Part shown: one piece after another, positions 13,317-19,587 of the stretch
Layout of the letters: each line of letters opens with the position of its first letter
Numbering within the stretch: the stretch's first letter is position 1
DNA from: Muricauda sp. SCSIO 65647
Lineage (GTDB): Bacteria; Bacteroidota; Bacteroidia; Flavobacteriales; Flavobacteriaceae
DNA: 64,000 nt
NCBI RefSeq assembly: GCF_021534965.1
Contig: NZ_CP091037.1
Location: forward strand, 2,210,501 to 2,274,500
Direction of reading: 5' to 3'
Program-made: the position numbers and the translations under genes
Notes under the pieces: model-generated
Database searches by the model: none
Told to the model about the DNA's origin: nothing
Seen by the model: the letters and a program-made list of their open reading frames with translations, nothing else

Positions 13317-13551
13317 TGATTTGCTATTGGTTGAAAAATGTGTCGCTTTTAAAGATAGAAACTTAACAGTGACCTTTTATTTAGAAAGAATTTAAATTCT
13401 TGATCGTAGTGTAAGGATGCTGCATAAGAAACGAACGGGCAGTTTGCTGGTTCACAAAAGCTTAAACATTTCATAAAAACACAACCTTCATTGTATGTCT
13501 TCGATATTCAGCACGACCCATATGTCGAAAAGATGTTTCAAAACTAGTTCG

Positions 13552-14274
13552 ATGATTGCAAAAAAGGTGCTGGCCACGATGATCATATTGGTTTTTTTCC
13601 AGGTTGGAATTGCCCAAAGCACAACCGAATTTTTCTCAAGAACAGATGCTTTTTTGAAAATGCATGTGAAAAACGGAAGGGTCGATTATGAGGCCATAAA
13701 AGGTAATCTGGGCGATTTGGATGAAACCTTGCGATCGGCACAAGATATTTCAGTCTCAAAAAATGATTCAAACACCTATCAGGCTTTTTGGATCAATGCC
13801 TACAATCTTTTGGTGATCAAAGAAGTGGCCAAAAATTATCCGGTAAAGTCCCCATTGGATATCAGCGGCATTTTCGATACGACAGAACATAAGATCGGTG
13901 GTGAGAACATTACTTTGAATGATATCGAAAACCGTTTGTTGAGGGGTAATTTTTCAAATGAGGCGCGATTTCATTTTGTATTGGTCTGTGCTGGGTTGGG
14001 ATGCCCACCCATCATAAGCGAAGCATATCTTCCCGACGAATTGGAGGGCCAACTGCAACGACAGACAGTGCTAGCCCTCAACAATCCAGATTTTATCCAG
14101 GTAAAGAATGACAAGGTGCTCCTTTCGCAAATCTTTGATTGGTACAAAGAGGATTTCATTACGGACGGAAAGACAGCAATCGACTTTATCAACCAATTCA
14201 GAAAAGAAAAAATAGACCCTGACAAGCGTATTGGGCACTATAGCTATGATTGGCGTTTGAACGACTTAAATTAA
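13552..14274 (+). CDS. Secreted DUF547 protein
   Basis: Family DUF547, shown by QAFWINAYNLLVIKEV and, later, HFVLVCAGLGCPP. Function is not established for the family. A signal peptide MIAKKVLATMIILVFFQVGIAQ gives a compact start at 13552 (240 residues); an in-frame ATG at 13495 would add 19 residues without changing the domain. It diverges from the redox-glycosyltransferase operon across a 235-bp spacer (178 bp from the upstream ATG). DUF547 genes are often found near glycosyltransferase and radical-SAM transferase genes in Bacteroidota, so the neighbourhood may be functional. Confidence 0.82.
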   Translation: MIAKKVLATMIILVFFQVGIAQSTTEFFSRTDAFLKMHVKNGRVDYEAIKGNLGDLDETLRSAQDISVSKNDSNTYQAFWINAYNLLVIKEVAKNYPVKSPLDISGIFDTTEHKIGGENITLNDIENRLLRGNFSNEARFHFVLVCAGLGCPPIISEAYLPDELEGQLQRQTVLALNNPDFIQVKNDKVLLSQIFDWYKEDFITDGKTAIDFINQFRKEKIDPDKRIGHYSYDWRLNDLN

Positions 14275-14332: not shown

Positions 14333-15334
14333 GTGAAAAATCTTTGGCTTCTTCTTTTATGGCTTTTGCAGCTGAGCTGTAGCAGCCAAATTCAAGAGAA
14401 AATCAATGGGGTAAGTTTTGTAGGCTCAAGAGAAAAGGTCGATCAAACCCATATAGATCCCGTGGTGGCCGTAAATGCCAACTATGCCGCCGTGATGCCG
14501 TTCGGTTTTGTTCGCAGTCTCAGTTCACCGAATGTAATTTTCGATACGGACCGCCAATGGTACGGAGAGACACGGGCAGGTGCCAAACAATATATTGAAC
14601 TTTTGCAGAAGAATGGAATAAAAATCATGCTCAAACCACAAATATGGGTTTGGAGGGGCGAGTTCACCGGTGATATGGTGATGCAATCTGAAACGGATTG
14701 GAAGATGCTGGAGGAGACGTATCGCAAATTTATTATCACATATGCCGAATTGGCCGAAGAAACAAAGGCCGAAGTATTCTGTATTGGTACAGAGCTGGAA
14801 GAATTCGTGAAGTACCGCCCTGATTATTGGAAGCAACTTATAGCCCAGGTTCGGGAAGTGTACAAAGGAAAGATAACGTATGCCGCCAATTGGGATGAGT
14901 ACCCCAGAACCCCTTTTTGGGAACAATTGGACTTTATAGGCATCGATGCTTATTTTCCGCTGTCGGAAAGTGAAAACCCTACCCCAGAAGAACTACAGAT
15001 CGGCTGGGGAAAATGGAAGGTTTCAATGATGACCTTTTCAGAAGAAAAGGAAAGACCCATACTTTTTACTGAATTTGGGTATCGCAGTATGGACTATACG
15101 GCCCATAAGCCTTGGTTGGTAGATCATAACAAAGAGCAGGTCAATCTTGAGGCACAGGCCGATGCTTTAAGGGTCATTTTCGAAGAGTTCTGGTCAGAAG
15201 ATTGGTTTGCAGGTGGGTTTGTGTGGAAATGGTTCATTCACCATGACAGGTCAGGTGGGGCAAGTGATAATCGGTTTACCCCTCAGAACAAACCGGCAGA
15301 AGAGGTCATCAGGTCGTTTTACCAGAACTTATAA
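14333..15334 (+). CDS. GH113-like glycoside hydrolase lipoprotein
   Basis: A 333-residue lipoprotein read from a GTG start; the lipobox LQLSC places the lipidated cysteine at C16. The (beta/alpha)8 fold is suggested by GVSFVGSR, KIMLKPQIW and IGIDAYFPL. E154 (IGTELEE) and E247 (FTEFGYRS) fit the acid/base and nucleophile of GH113 beta-mannanases. It stands alone, without SusC/SusD or other mannan genes, so an envelope-glycan role is as likely as dietary mannan breakdown. The spacer to DUF547 is 58 bp. Confidence 0.75.
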   Translation: MKNLWLLLLWLLQLSCSSQIQEKINGVSFVGSREKVDQTHIDPVVAVNANYAAVMPFGFVRSLSSPNVIFDTDRQWYGETRAGAKQYIELLQKNGIKIMLKPQIWVWRGEFTGDMVMQSETDWKMLEETYRKFIITYAELAEETKAEVFCIGTELEEFVKYRPDYWKQLIAQVREVYKGKITYAANWDEYPRTPFWEQLDFIGIDAYFPLSESENPTPEELQIGWGKWKVSMMTFSEEKERPILFTEFGYRSMDYTAHKPWLVDHNKEQVNLEAQADALRVIFEEFWSEDWFAGGFVWKWFIHHDRSGGASDNRFTPQNKPAEEVIRSFYQNL

Positions 15335-15434: not shown

Positions 15435-16355
15435 ATGCCACGACGCTTTTTGTTTTTTTTGACCATTGTCTTTCTTTCAAGCCATCTTTTGGCACAAGAT
15501 TCGCTTCAGACCGTGGTGGCGGAACCTGGTGATGGAATCTTTTCGATCTTGAGAAAACAAGGGGTGTATCCAAAGAAATACTATGAAGCGTTTTTAAAGC
15601 TGAACGAAGGGCATATCAAGAATGGAAGCGAGTTAAAACAAGGATGGGCCTATAAGATTCCCGATGCACCCGATTCCTTTAAAAAGATGGGCCGGGCCGT
15701 ATCATTGCCCAGTGGTGATGAGACCCCCCTTTTCGAGACTGAGCTTGCAAAATTGGATTTGAAGAGCGAAGAACTAAAGGATGCCGTATATTATCTGATC
15801 GTTGAAGATAGTGTTCAAAACCAAGATTTTGTTTCGACCATTGCCACTAATTTGGCCAGTAGATTGTTGGTAAATGGTGCCAAGGTGTATGTCATCAAAG
15901 TGATGGATGAAACGTTGAAAAAAAATGAAATGGCGCTGTTGCAACAGTATGTAGATGTGGTGAACAAGAGATACCTTAAGAACCAAGGAAAATACCAACG
16001 CCTGTTGCTGTTGCGTTCAAACGGTACATTTCAGGGCAAAAACCTCGATTTGGCATTTTATCATCATGATGGCAGCAATGAAGGACAAAGGTTGGCAGAT
16101 AATCTTGAAATGATTTTTACAAGGAACAGCAAAAAGGTGGTTACGGTCGAAAATTCGCAAGATGTTCTTAAGAATAAGGGCAACCTATTCTTGGCAAAAA
16201 ACATTCTGCCAGCAATAACCGTGCTTTCCATTTCCGATTCAAAAGCCAAATCAAAAGAAGGAAAGCTGATTGTCAGAAAAGACCAAAAGGCGATGACCCA
16301 GATGATTGCCAAAGGCATGTTTCAAGACTATGCCGATCTCGAAATAGAAGAATGA
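15435..16355 (+). CDS. Secreted Amidase_3-like protein lacking the catalytic residues (pseudo-amidase)
   Basis: A 306-residue exported protein (signal peptide MPRRFLFFLTIVFLSSHLLA) paralogous along its length to the next gene: a LysM-like start (TVVAEPGDGIFSILRKQGVY), then an N-acetylmuramoyl-L-alanine amidase fold. The active amidase's zinc motif SGHGGPDPGA is replaced by VEDSVQNQDF, its THVDS histidine by LRSNG, and its catalytic EIGN by SISD, while structural strings such as GKYQRLL and AFYHHD remain. It is therefore probably not a hydrolase. The start at 15435 is preferred over an in-frame upstream ATG because it begins the signal peptide. It overlaps the true amidase by 4 bp (ATGA), so the two are made together. 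Confidence 0.78.
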   Translation: MPRRFLFFLTIVFLSSHLLAQDSLQTVVAEPGDGIFSILRKQGVYPKKYYEAFLKLNEGHIKNGSELKQGWAYKIPDAPDSFKKMGRAVSLPSGDETPLFETELAKLDLKSEELKDAVYYLIVEDSVQNQDFVSTIATNLASRLLVNGAKVYVIKVMDETLKKNEMALLQQYVDVVNKRYLKNQGKYQRLLLLRSNGTFQGKNLDLAFYHHDGSNEGQRLADNLEMIFTRNSKKVVTVENSQDVLKNKGNLFLAKNILPAITVLSISDSKAKSKEGKLIVRKDQKAMTQMIAKGMFQDYADLEIEE

Positions 16356-17386
16356 AGAGTGCTTTTCGCTTGAACCGATCAAAATACTTTTTCTGCTTTT
16401 TCTTACTTCCGATGTTGGTCGTGGCGCAAGACTCGTTGCGAACGGTCGTGGCAAAGCAGGGCGATGGTATCTATTCGCTGCTTCGAGAAAATGGAATCAA
16501 CCCCACTAAGTTCTATAACCAGTTTGTAGCGCTAAATGCTAAAGATTTAGGAGAAGATGAGGTTTTGTACATGGGGCGCACCTATTTGTTGCCCGATACC
16601 TTGTCAATTGGGAAAGTTGACAAAATAGAAGATGAGATCAAATATCCCATCTTTGGTGAAGATTTTGCCAGGGTTGATTCTGTAAGCAATCGACTGGGTG
16701 ATACCGTTTATTATTTGATTTCGGGCCATGGCGGTCCAGACCCGGGTGCGGTCGATAGATATGATGGTAAATTGATTGCCGAAGATGAGTATGCCTATGA
16801 TGTGACACTGCGTTTGGCTCGAGAATTACTGTCTCATGGCGCAGAGGTGCACATTATAGTTCAAGACGGGAATGATGGTATTCGCGATGACCGGATACTT
16901 GAAGTGGATACGGACGAAATCGTCATTCCCGACCAAGCTATTCCGCTGAAGCAGTTGGCGCGTTTGAAACAGCGAACCGAAGCGGTGAACGATTTGTATT
17001 CAAAGAACCGCGGCAAGTACCAACGACTGTTGGTCACCCATGTTGACAGCCGTAGCAGGGGCACTAATATCGATGTGTTCTTTTACCACCATGAGAAAAG
17101 CAAAAACGGCAAAAGATTGGCCGAGAGCATACACCTGACGTTTTTGAGAAAGTATAGGAAGTTTCAGCCCAATCGGGTCTATAACGGCACATTTATGGAA
17201 CGAAGCGGCCTGTATGTGGTCAAAAACACACTTCCCGCAATGGCCTATATTGAGATTGGGAACCTTAGGAGCAAAAAAGACCAGCGGCGTATTTTAGATC
17301 CAGACAATCGGCAGGCATTGGCCAAATGGATATCAGAGGGCATTCTTTTAGATTACGAGTCTTCGAAAATGGGCGGGTCAAAGTAA
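16352..17386 (+). CDS. N-acetylmuramoyl-L-alanine amidase (Amidase_3) with LysM-like domain
   Basis: A 344-residue exported enzyme cutting the bond between N-acetylmuramic acid and L-alanine in peptidoglycan. After the signal peptide (to about A25), a LysM-like module covers about 31-81. The Amidase_3 zinc set is intact: H126 (SGHGGPDPGA), E144 or E146, H230 (THVDS), and catalytic E301 (YIEIGN). It ends 9 bp inside the convergent glycosyltransferase gene. It is co-translated with its inactive paralogue just upstream, which may regulate or localise it. Confidence 0.88.
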   Translation: MKSAFRLNRSKYFFCFFLLPMLVVAQDSLRTVVAKQGDGIYSLLRENGINPTKFYNQFVALNAKDLGEDEVLYMGRTYLLPDTLSIGKVDKIEDEIKYPIFGEDFARVDSVSNRLGDTVYYLISGHGGPDPGAVDRYDGKLIAEDEYAYDVTLRLARELLSHGAEVHIIVQDGNDGIRDDRILEVDTDEIVIPDQAIPLKQLARLKQRTEAVNDLYSKNRGKYQRLLVTHVDSRSRGTNIDVFFYHHEKSKNGKRLAESIHLTFLRKYRKFQPNRVYNGTFMERSGLYVVKNTLPAMAYIEIGNLRSKKDQRRILDPDNRQALAKWISEGILLDYESSKMGGSK

Positions 17387-18073
17387 TTTTTTTGAATAGT
17401 AACGGTATAACTCATCTGGCCCCGCACCCAAATAATTCTTGAGATGTATCATGGCAAAGTGAAACTGTACTTTCAGCCAGCCTTTTTGCCTATACTTTCT
17501 GGCCGAGGTGGTCACACGTTGGGGCAAGACCTTGAAATGGGCATGTTTGTACAATCTACCAATGAACTCACTGTCTTCATAAATCAAGTAATTCTCATTG
17601 AATCCACCATTTCCAAAAAATACCTCTTTGGTAACGAAAAGTGATTGGTCACCCCCGCGGCATAGTGTGTGGTTGATTCTTGACAGCCAAGCAAAAAAAC
17701 GCAGAACGGGGTTTTTGCTATCAAATCGCATACGAAAACAGCCTGATTGACTTTTCTCTTCAACAGCTTGTACGATGAAAAGGTCAAAATTCTTTGGCGG
17801 TAAGGTATCCGCATGTAAAAAGTACAAGATATCACCCACTGCCTTTGAAGCACCCAGGTTCATTTGACTTGCCCTACCCCGTTTGGCCTTATGCACTGAG
17901 GCACCAAACTTTAAGGCAGTTTGAACAGTTTGGTCGGTACTGCCCCCATCGATTACAAGAATCTCGGCGATGTTTTTTTTGTCGCTGGTCTGAAATAGGT
18001 GCTGTAACAGACTCCCGATTAATTTTGCCTCATTAAGCGTAGGGATGATAATGCTGATTTTTGGGGTGGCCAT
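17378..18073 (-). CDS. GT2 family transferase, TIGR04283 type (arsenosugar-associated)
   Basis: A 231-residue GT-A protein: IIIPTLNEAKLIGSLL (8-23), VIDGGSTDQTV, LHADTLPP as the DxD-like site, and a C-terminal ARKYRQKGW. This combination fits TIGR04283, the rSAM/selenodomain-associated transferase 2, which is named after its link to arsenosugar biosynthesis loci. It lies on the minus strand with PNP and the TIGR04282 partner. Its sugar acceptor is unproven, and a general GT2 role cannot be ruled out. Confidence 0.75.
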   Translation of the reverse strand: MATPKISIIIPTLNEAKLIGSLLQHLFQTSDKKNIAEILVIDGGSTDQTVQTALKFGASVHKAKRGRASQMNLGASKAVGDILYFLHADTLPPKNFDLFIVQAVEEKSQSGCFRMRFDSKNPVLRFFAWLSRINHTLCRGGDQSLFVTKEVFFGNGGFNENYLIYEDSEFIGRLYKHAHFKVLPQRVTTSARKYRQKGWLKVQFHFAMIHLKNYLGAGPDELYRYYSKKLL

Positions 18074-18092
18074 TCTTTTGAATTATATCAAA

Positions 18093-18106
18093 CACTATCA
18101 ATAGTG
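18093..18106. repeat. Inverted repeat between PNP and TIGR04283 genes
   Basis: CACTAT-CA-ATAGTG lies in the 81-bp gap upstream of the TIGR04283 transferase. It could be an operator for that gene or a hairpin after the PNP gene; there is no T-run to mark a terminator. Confidence 0.25.
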
Positions 18107-18154
18107 GCAAAAAATAAAAGAACCTTACGGAAATCCATCAATATAAATTGTGCA

Positions 18155-18970
18155 TTAAAGTTCTTCGATCAGCCCTTTGAACAATTTGATCATCTTCGGC
18201 TCTGTCTTGGCGGCTATCTCAATAATCTCCTGAATATTGATAGGCCTCAGATTATCGGGATCGCACTCGTCGGTAAGTACTGAAACAGCTACAATGGGCA
18301 GTCGTAAATGGTTGGCCACAATAACCTCGGGCACGGTGCTCATGCCCACGGCATCGGCCCCCAAAGTTTTCAGCATGCGGTATTCAGCTTTCGTTTCCAA
18401 TTGTGGGCCAACAACTGAAACATAAACGCCTTTTTGCAAAGAAATCGATTCCCTTTTGGCTATCGCTTCAATTTTAACGCGCATTTCAACATCATAGGGT
18501 TCGCTCATATCGACAAAGCGGTCTCCAAATGCTGTCACATTTTTGAAAGCCAAAGGTGAGCTGCCCTGTAGGTTGATATGGTCTTCAATGAGCATGATGT
18601 CTCCCTTTTTGAAATCGAGGTTGATGGCACCCGCAGCATTGGAGATGAAAAGTCTCTTGATGCCCAGTTGGTGCATGACCCTGATGGGGTAGGTAATATC
18701 CAAGAAATCATAGCCCTCATATAAGTGGAAACGCCCCTGCATCACCACCACCTTTTTGCCCGCAATGGTACCGTAGATCAACTTGCCCGAGTGAAACTCG
18801 ACCGTGGCCAAGGGAAAGTAAGGAATGTGGTTATAGTGTGCCACAATGGGATCTTCAATTTCATCGACCATTTGACCTAGGCCCGTGCCCAGAACAATAC
18901 CGATATCTGGCGTGTCAAACCCTTTTGATCTTAAATGGGCGACCGATTCGTCCAACTGTTTTTGCGTCAT
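18155..18970 (-). CDS. Purine-nucleoside phosphorylase (trimeric PNP/MTAP family)
   Basis: A 271-residue PNP that splits purine nucleosides with phosphate to base and ribose-1-phosphate. GTGLGQ (28-33) binds phosphate; GRFHLYEGY, SNAAGAIN, VGPQLETKAEYRM and MSTVPEV are the expected core motifs. It overlaps the TIGR04282 transferase gene (ATGA), so both are translated together. In arsenosugar loci a nucleoside phosphorylase is proposed to act on the adenosyl-arsenical intermediate; ordinary purine salvage is the simpler role. Confidence 0.9.
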   Translation of the reverse strand: MTQKQLDESVAHLRSKGFDTPDIGIVLGTGLGQMVDEIEDPIVAHYNHIPYFPLATVEFHSGKLIYGTIAGKKVVVMQGRFHLYEGYDFLDITYPIRVMHQLGIKRLFISNAAGAINLDFKKGDIMLIEDHINLQGSSPLAFKNVTAFGDRFVDMSEPYDVEMRVKIEAIAKRESISLQKGVYVSVVGPQLETKAEYRMLKTLGADAVGMSTVPEVIVANHLRLPIVAVSVLTDECDPDNLRPINIQEIIEIAAKTEPKMIKLFKGLIEEL

Positions 18971-19587
18971 TCTTCCATATGTTTTAAAAAAGGTTTGAAA
19001 GCCTCGATGCCTTTGATGTCTTTGTACAAATCAACATCATTTCGCTCTTCGAGCAAAGTGATTTGATCATTTTTTAAATCGGTCAATGTAGCTTGCAGTA
19101 CACTCTCAGTGCCCCATTTCTTGTTCTTGAACAACTTGGCGTTCATTTTTTTCATTCCCAACAGATAATAGCCCCCATCATGCGCGGGTCCGACTACATA
19201 ATCAGAATCATCCAAGGCATCAAATGCTTTGTTCAGATCGGCTTCCGATAGCTCGTACATATCACTGCCGATGATGATGATTTTTTCAAATCTATCATTA
19301 AAACCAGCTTGGAAGGCATCTTGCATGCGCTCGCCCAAATCGTTTCCCAGCTGTAGTTTTTTGGTGTAGTTGCCATCCTTCCAAATATCATCATCCCAAA
19401 TTTCTTCAGAGTAATAGACCCGTTTTTCGACCGTTAGATATTGGGTGATTTTCTGTGTGTGCCGTAATAAAAAAAGGTAAACCTCCAGAGCGGCCTCGTC
19501 GCCAATGGTCTTTGCCAGACGGGTCTTACATTTGCCGGGTTCAGGGTTTCGGGTGAAAATAAGGAGTAAGCTCTTCGGGTTGCTCAT
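18967..19587 (-). CDS. DUF2064 / TIGR04282 family transferase (arsenosugar-associated)
   Basis: A 206-residue nucleotidyltransferase-like GT-A protein: LLLIFTRNPEPGKCKTRLA (7-25) at the N-terminus, IIIGSDMYELS, and GPAHDGGYYLLGM. These are the hallmarks of TIGR04282, the rSAM/selenodomain-associated transferase 1. It is the first gene of the minus-strand trio with PNP and the TIGR04283 transferase. Neither a radical-SAM protein nor ArsM is present in the window. Confidence 0.78.
   Translation of the reverse strand: MSNPKSLLLIFTRNPEPGKCKTRLAKTIGDEAALEVYLFLLRHTQKITQYLTVEKRVYYSEEIWDDDIWKDGNYTKKLQLGNDLGERMQDAFQAGFNDRFEKIIIIGSDMYELSEADLNKAFDALDDSDYVVGPAHDGGYYLLGMKKMNAKLFKNKKWGTESVLQATLTDLKNDQITLLEERNDVDLYKDIKGIEAFKPFLKHMEE

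Follow-up and report, generated by a model that had tools for sequence, protein, structure and literature searches.

In a 64,000-nucleotide stretch of the Muricauda sp. SCSIO 65647 genome (contig NZ_CP091037.1, positions 2,210,501 to 2,274,500; hereafter the window), two tandem genes encode P1, an apparently secreted amidase homologue that has lost its catalytic residues, and P2, its paralogue and a predicted active N-acetylmuramoyl-L-alanine amidase. P1 very probably performs a real, non-cutting job in the cell wall, because relatives in several genera keep the dead copy, some of them without the live one. Judging from comparative sequence evidence, we see about an even chance that P1 is a periplasmic, LysM-bearing, non-catalytic pseudo-amidase that functions independently of P2, as a peptidoglycan-binding adaptor in an envelope gene cluster.

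The paralogous pair and the vacated active site

P1 and P2 align by BLASTP at 29% identity over 328 columns (161 bits, E 8e-52), the alignment spanning the leader, the LysM-like part and the amidase part. Chance similarity was ruled out, as the pair scored 164 bits without composition adjustment against a maximum of 28.5 bits in 500 shuffles of P2. An initial model-made reading of the window's letters (the sequence-only reading) had described tandem paralogues with a 4-bp overlap, aligned over these LysM-like and amidase parts, and the alignment bears this out. P2 matches the Pfam Amidase_3 family (PF01520) with 65.6 bits against a cut-off of 27, and Amidase_3 matches at E ≤ 0.01 were found in all 23 P2-type members scanned. 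The window's P1 has no Pfam Amidase_3 match at E ≤ 1, a threshold at which 5 of 12 P1 members match the profile (best E 4.4e-6). P1 likewise has no M23 match (Pfam at E ≤ 1, NCBIfam at E ≤ 0.1), and no LysM family in Pfam matched P1 or P2 at E ≤ 1.

P2 holds H126, E144, E146, H230 and E301, as that reading had stated, and the corresponding P1 columns show Asp, a gap, Asp, Arg and Ser. H126, E144, H230 and E301 are each present in 59 of 59 active-type rows, and E146 in 58 of 59; the zinc-ligand and catalytic roles of the first four are those we assume from the Amidase_3 family. The loss in P1 of the zinc motif, the second His and the catalytic Glu is likewise upheld (D125, R194, S265 and a zinc-loop gap), with the refinement that the replacements are not fixed among orthologues. 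As expected of a conserved dead copy, the full catalytic set occurs in none of the 21 intact P1 orthologues, though single columns are sometimes Glu or His. Among these 21, the first-His column reads Asp in four, Gln in four, Glu in four, Ser in three, Thr in two and Asn, His, Gly and Ile in one each; the Glu144 column retains Glu in two; the second-His column reads Asn in 11, Arg in five, Asp in four and Gln in one; and the catalytic-Glu column reads Glu in six, Asp in six, Thr in three, Ser in two and other residues in four. Column letters in the zinc loop vary with the alignment for some rows because P1 is gapped there. On the simplest reading, the zinc site would have been lost once, before P1 diversified, with drift at the former site positions ever since.

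The two proteins also differ in length ahead of the second His. P2 residues 169-201, from the second strand to the next helix, measure 32-33 residues in every P2 row (27) and every outgroup row (five), against 8-29 in P1. Within this region, P2 carries an acidic segment (about residues 174-200; window 16871-16951) ahead of the second zinc His that is missing, by eye, from the housekeeping amidase of the same genome, and it is possibly a substrate or regulatory segment.

The AlphaFold2 model of P1, built from an alignment of 31 rows (12 P1, 16 P2 and 3 outgroup), has a mean predicted local distance difference test score (pLDDT) of 86.5 and a predicted template modelling score of 0.84. In VIA structure comparisons it matched CwlD (7rag_B) with Z 15.8 over 169 residues at 3.6 Å, followed by Rv3717 (Z 15.0), AmiA (13.1) and AmiC (12.3), and rows 1-22 (Z 15.8-10.8) are nearly all titled amidases or endolysins. 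Foldseek returned just two matches at E ≤ 0.001, namely 9a7d (5.5e-5) and CwlV 1jwq (3.8e-4), the latter being the best amidase-titled match. The amidase fold of P1 is thus predicted to be intact. A further Foldseek match, to the LysM structure 4uz2_B, has probability 1.00, E 0.028, a root-mean-square deviation of 2.1 over 56 columns and a target-normalised template modelling score of 0.42. The P1 N-terminus, read by eye, is a hydrophobic, Sec-like leader ending LLAQ, without a lipobox Cys, and the predicted structure places a helix at residues 3-19. A structure model of P2 was set aside as poor (pLDDT 65.7).

Distribution, descent and constraint

In a family sample of 299 genomes, the window's own included, profiles P0001 and P0002 found any match in 59 and 60 genomes, respectively. 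P1 and P2 were counted from fetched loci and coordinates; at the remaining P2-only loci both searches hit the same coordinates and count as one P2, and a weak match in G157 was counted as neither. P2 is present in 56 genomes and P1 in 11 (ten intact, one split in G150), with both genes in eight genomes, G150 counted, and P1 without P2 in three (G086, G120 and G164). Genus searches added G299 and G300, each with both genes, and showed P1 in 10 of 11 genomes of the genus to which G164 belongs, two of the ten (G923 and G932) also having P2. This genus was queried with the P1 profile only; elsewhere the same profile found P2 at E 1e-64 or better, and the absence of P2 in the genus is well but indirectly tested. 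One of its genomes, G927, is 92% complete. In total, 21 intact P1 genes occur in eight genera, in 11 genomes with P2 and 10 without detectable P2, the latter from three genera with eight genomes from one. The outcome that would have spoken for a random decaying duplicate, absence of P1 from relatives, was not what we found.

The split P1 of G150 consists of two overlapping open reading frames (ORFs) at the usual locus (L073:4986-5971), with a full-length P2 elsewhere (L074:4934-6103); it may be a genuine pseudogene or an artefact of assembly, the genome being 86% complete. Profile searches were widened to the order (395 genomes) and the phylum (296 genomes), in samples that share genomes with one another and with the family set. 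Neither search revealed a further dead copy, two weak LysM-region matches in G467 and G597 being left out. Outside the family, 19 of 20 proteins from the phylum search hold the four residues, and the remaining one, LysM-only, was dropped.

P1 forms one clade with support of 100/100, with 21 rows as with 12. When two long-branch rows (G164 and G176) are excluded, the clade is recovered from the amidase half at 100/100 and from the LysM half at 100/97; a quick LysM-half tree of 12 P1 rows placed G164 outside P1 with weak support. In full-length trees, P1 nests within the family's P2. For groups named after the trees had been inspected, the approximately unbiased (AU) test rejected a P2 clade excluding P1 for the catalytic domain (p 0.0138) and did not reject it for the LysM half (p 0.3). 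P1 appears to have branched off inside the family's P2 diversity, with no single branch singled out, and deep branches of the rpoB tree are weak.

Three single-copy active amidases, in G108 (L080:5333-6457), G103 (L082:5213-6232) and G102 (L083:5075-6127), carry a P1-like stretch after LysM. They could be chimeras of a former pair, with a P1-type N-terminus gained by old P1/P2 recombination, but in the N-terminal tree their grouping with P1 reaches no more than 71/87. Holding the three together was not rejected by the AU test on the catalytic domain (p 0.486), and they may simply be the nearest active relatives of P1.

Terminal branches of P1 show no consistent lengthening in the absence of P2. 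They measure 0.68 in G086, 1.09 in G120, 0.56 in G931, 2.42 in G164 and 0.008-0.29 in six others without P2, and 0.05-0.82 plus 1.64 in G176 where P2 is present. Ratios of nonsynonymous to synonymous substitution rates (dN/dS, by the Nei-Gojobori method, NG86) for whole P1 are 0.123 for G000-G300 (dS 0.39), 0.118 for G000-G201 (dS 1.8) and 0.184 for G258-G032 (dS 2.0), two further P1/P2 pairs having saturated dS; the dead domain alone gives 0.130 and 0.156. In the mostly P1-only genus of G164, with P1 drawn from six P1-only genomes, seven pairs were compared, of which two were saturated and five give 0.070, 0.145, 0.117, 0.097 and, at dS 1.9, 0.135; the dead domain in P1-only relatives gives 0.059-0.126. 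Low dN/dS and the lack of consistent branch lengthening together argue that P1 is kept for a function, whether P2 is present or not.

Constraint is distributed differently in the two paralogues. In P1 the LysM part evolves at a median 0.54 times the rate of the amidase part, against 2.21 times in single-copy P2; constraint thus lies relatively more on LysM in P1 and on the catalytic domain in P2. A relaxation of LysM constraint in paired P2 was considered and dropped, since the medians in two paired clades (2.44 and 1.51) show no clear effect against the single-copy value. Across P1, 69 columns are conserved in at least 18 of 21 members. Those differing from P2 lie mainly in or just after LysM (F36, K48, K62, G64, S65, F82 and K83), with the nearby D80 and S81 common to 13 and 10 of 27 P2, respectively. 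Invariant columns of the amidase domain (Y120, L121, A149, N177, Y187-Q188-R189, H210, P259 and D298) are mostly common to P2, and L181 and N256 are matched in 9 and 13 of 27 P2. We infer that P1 is a preserved scaffold bearing a LysM head rather than a re-used active site.

The locus and its neighbourhood

Features of the locus are collected in Table 1. The window genome is a single contig of 3.81 Mb, and an Allomuricauda sp. relative (Flavobacteriaceae) carries the locus with a P1 of 90% identity.

Table 1. Features of the P1/P2 locus, with positions counted from the first nucleotide of the window
Feature	Position	Strand	Evidence
DUF547 protein, gene 1 of the conserved cluster	13495..14274	+	Pfam; synteny
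GH113-like glycoside hydrolase, conserved upstream neighbour	14333..15334	+	Pfam GH113, 149 bits; synteny
P1 pseudo-amidase, putative signal peptide, 306 aa, gene 1 of the pair	15435..16355	+	ORF, homology and model
P1 LysM-like domain, residues 27-76, evolving more slowly than the remaining P1	15513..15662	+	conserved columns, rates, Foldseek
P1 dead Amidase_3-fold domain (predicted), residues 116-302	15780..16340	+	AlphaFold2 and VIA
P1 Asp125 replacing the first zinc His; zinc-loop stretch after Asp125 absent	15807..15809	+	alignment
P1 Arg194 replacing the second zinc His	16014..16016	+	alignment
P1 Ser265 replacing the catalytic Glu	16227..16229	+	alignment
P1 stop codon overlapping the P2 start codon (ATGA, 4 bp)	16352..16355	+	sequence
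P2, LysM-like and Amidase_3 N-acetylmuramoyl-L-alanine amidase, predicted active, 344 aa	16352..17386	+	ORF, Pfam, residue alignment
P2 His126, first zinc ligand (assumed role)	16727..16729	+	alignment
P2 Glu144 (59/59 rows, probable zinc ligand) to Glu146 (58/59)	16781..16789	+	alignment
P2 His230, second zinc His	17039..17041	+	alignment
P2 Glu301, catalytic Glu	17252..17254	+	alignment
Convergent block, TIGR04283-type glycosyltransferase first (NCBIfam)	17378-19587	-

The ATGA overlap suggests translational coupling of P1 and P2. All four genomes examined from the window's genus share the 4-bp overlap, a TTG start codon occurring in one. In other genera, the first possible P2 start lies between -50 and +490 bp from P1, although the true start is uncertain in G229, G247 and G258. 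In G923 and G932, P1 and P2 stand apart and their order is changed, the reshuffled clusters (L196:6242-9415 and L197:5736-11953) having P2 upstream and P1 last, after GH113.

In relatives, the cluster runs in order from the DUF547 gene through a gene of about 290 aa, GH113, sometimes a gene of about 245 aa, and a POTRA protein of about 420 aa to P1 and/or P2. The window's cluster is the short form, lacking the 290-aa gene and the POTRA gene. The convergent block starting with the TIGR04283 glycosyltransferase follows the amidase cluster in relatives too; its other genes are presumably a purine nucleoside phosphorylase and a TIGR04282 glycosyltransferase. Against Pfam POTRA, the 420-aa protein scores 22.7 and 23.7 bits at a cut-off of 21.3; in many relatives its gene lies beside those for GH113 and the amidases (for example, L066:3716-4981). 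A second POTRA relative, 45-51% identical, lies elsewhere in six genomes searched, and the sole POTRA-type match in the window genome is a 47% relative away from the locus. DUF547, GH113 and the POTRA gene are present at all ten P1-only loci. POTRA is not specific to P1, since its presence varies among P2-only genomes and a match was found in five of nine genomes without P1 or P2, drawn from the unmatched family genomes.

Possible roles of P1

Dead wall hydrolases acting as regulators are already known, for example EnvC, Csd2 and CwlM, and none of these is a secreted Amidase_3 protein with LysM. CwlM of mycobacteria is described as an amidase homologue with non-conserved zinc-coordinating residues (degenerate His/Arg) and an essential, regulatory function in the cytoplasm, with an earlier report of amidase activity also cited there (PMC4946905). 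Like P1, CwlM is a degenerate Amidase_3 homologue; unlike P1, which has a putative signal peptide, a LysM-like domain and an active paralogue alongside, it is cytoplasmic and lacks a secretion signal. In Helicobacter pylori, Csd1-Csd2 is reported as a stable 1:1 heterodimer of a metal-binding wall hydrolase and a homologue with a degenerate site (PMC5053510). P1/P2 resembles it as a pair of a predicted active and a degenerate homologue, and differs in that Csd1-Csd2 has the M23/LytM fold and that 10 of 21 genomes keep P1 although P2 is not detected. EnvC, NlpD and DipM carry degenerate LytM domains that act on amidases (PMC9662197, PMC10268282, PMC10336132). In the amidase AmiA, the blocking helix and the EnvC-binding helix fall within residues 151-194. 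The LytM domains too are dead peptidoglycan hydrolase domains like P1, yet of the LytM fold, whereas the C-terminal domain of P1 is homologous to Amidase_3 through P2.

Residues 151-194 of AmiA come after the second zinc His. P2, as its sequence reads, has no comparable insert there, which makes EnvC-type activation of P2 unlikely, and an AmiA-type autoinhibition relieved by P1 was rejected on the same ground. The partners of CwlD and LytH are not known to be amidase paralogues, unlike the present case, in which the partner would be P2's own paralogue. CwlD-GerS (7rag) and LytH-ActH (7tj4) are, by their entry titles, Amidase_3 enzymes like P2 solved with a partner protein. No description of a secreted, LysM-bearing dead Amidase_3 protein was found in the open-access literature, most subscription journals lying outside the search. 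The sequence-only reading did not know such a role to be described; the general idea is not new, as the precedents above show.

P1 arose once in this family, by duplication of a LysM-Amidase_3 gene, and then lost catalysis, as sequence and tree show. Exported to the periplasm, as its leader implies, it would hold peptidoglycan through the LysM-like domain. The dead amidase domain would offer a rigid platform without catalysis, on which other envelope proteins of the cluster would most likely make contact. Since 10 of 21 carriers have no detectable P2, this function would be independent of P2. In genomes where the two genes are paired and co-translated, P1 and P2 probably serve one envelope process, in which P1 may help to position P2 or may modulate it; this link would be secondary and dispensable.

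Several points weigh against this adaptor reading. Kinship with active enzymes is built into the P1 model through the P2 and outgroup rows of its alignment, which favours an amidase fold, and the LysM call rests on a Foldseek match of modest E rather than on Pfam. P1 can be lost, as indicated by the split gene of G150, which has P2 elsewhere, and by G924, a member of the P1-only genus without either gene. Moreover, the longest P1 branch, that of G164, belongs to a P1-only genome, and the mirrored P1/P2 trees and the gene overlap would equally fit a partner of P2. The role of P1 could also be minor, because P1 has a higher dN/dS than P2 in all three pairs that could be computed (P1/P2 0.123/0.091, 0.118/0.051 and 0.184/0.114) and its amidase domain evolves about three to five times faster than that of P2 in the same genome pairs. 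Furthermore, the POTRA gene stands at the locus in only 6 of 12 carriers of both genes (G150 counted), and any P1-POTRA link is suggestive only, because the P1-only loci come from three genera, with eight genomes from one. We consider unlikely, though worth stating, a bolder version in which the dead amidase replaced the live one as a lasting cluster member, a peptidoglycan-reading adaptor linking LysM-bound wall sites to the outer-membrane POTRA protein, so that enzyme and adaptor would be interchangeable in one gene slot across genera.

The partner or regulator role first proposed for P1 is the alternative closest to the gene layout. As a dedicated inactive subunit, P1 would form a heterodimer with P2, in the manner of Csd2 with Csd1, and activate, restrain or position it; we regard this as possible but doubtful. 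The genes overlap in the window's genus, P1 lies directly before P2 in 9 of 11 carriers of both (one with a 490-bp gap), the active/degenerate M23 heterodimer provides a precedent, and the patristic distances of P1 and P2 are mirrored across 11 genomes (Pearson r 0.84; Mantel p 0.0002, with no species-tree correction). Such mirroring is expected from vertical inheritance alone, shared species history being sufficient to produce it, and does not decide between the readings. An obligate complex is disfavoured by the P1 carriers without detectable P2, where branches are not consistently longer, though that of G164 is, and by the two carriers of both in which the genes are not neighbours; conversely, P2 does not need P1, which is missing from 48 of 56 P2 carriers in the family sample. 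What is upheld of the original proposal is a conserved pseudo-amidase under purifying selection, its gene overlapping P2 in all four genomes examined from the genus; an obligate subunit or regulator of P2 is not supported. That P1 might instead regulate other wall hydrolases or shield against them, for example a housekeeping Amidase_3 enzyme, through competition for LysM sites or direct contact like EnvC/NlpD, appears quite improbable. Degenerate hydrolases are known regulators, and a second, canonical Amidase_3 enzyme elsewhere in the window genome would offer a target without P2. However, P1 matches that enzyme at noise level (20.4 bits), intact P1 was found in eight genera only although Amidase_3 is widespread (Amidase_3 proteins in 8 of 14 control genomes), and the drift of the former active-site positions is contrary to a substrate trap and disfavours the substrate decoy that had also been suggested. 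Finally, P1 evolves faster than P2, its gene is split in G150, G018 has P2 without P1 unlike G247 of the same genus, and G924 lacks both, all of which would fit a duplicate heading for loss and kept by drift. Whole-gene dN/dS of 0.07-0.18 at several distances, P1-only genomes included, and an intact, single clade of 21 genomes in eight genera with a predicted intact fold make this very improbable indeed, and the comparative record renders both decay and an obligate P2 subunit unlikely.

Dead LytM proteins are well known to regulate wall hydrolysis. CwlM is the one dead Amidase_3 regulator found in the literature searched, and it is cytoplasmic, whereas P1 is apparently secreted. With P1 present in eight genera, the naturally occurring P1-only, P2-only and paired species constitute a comparative system for what a wall hydrolase does after catalysis is lost.

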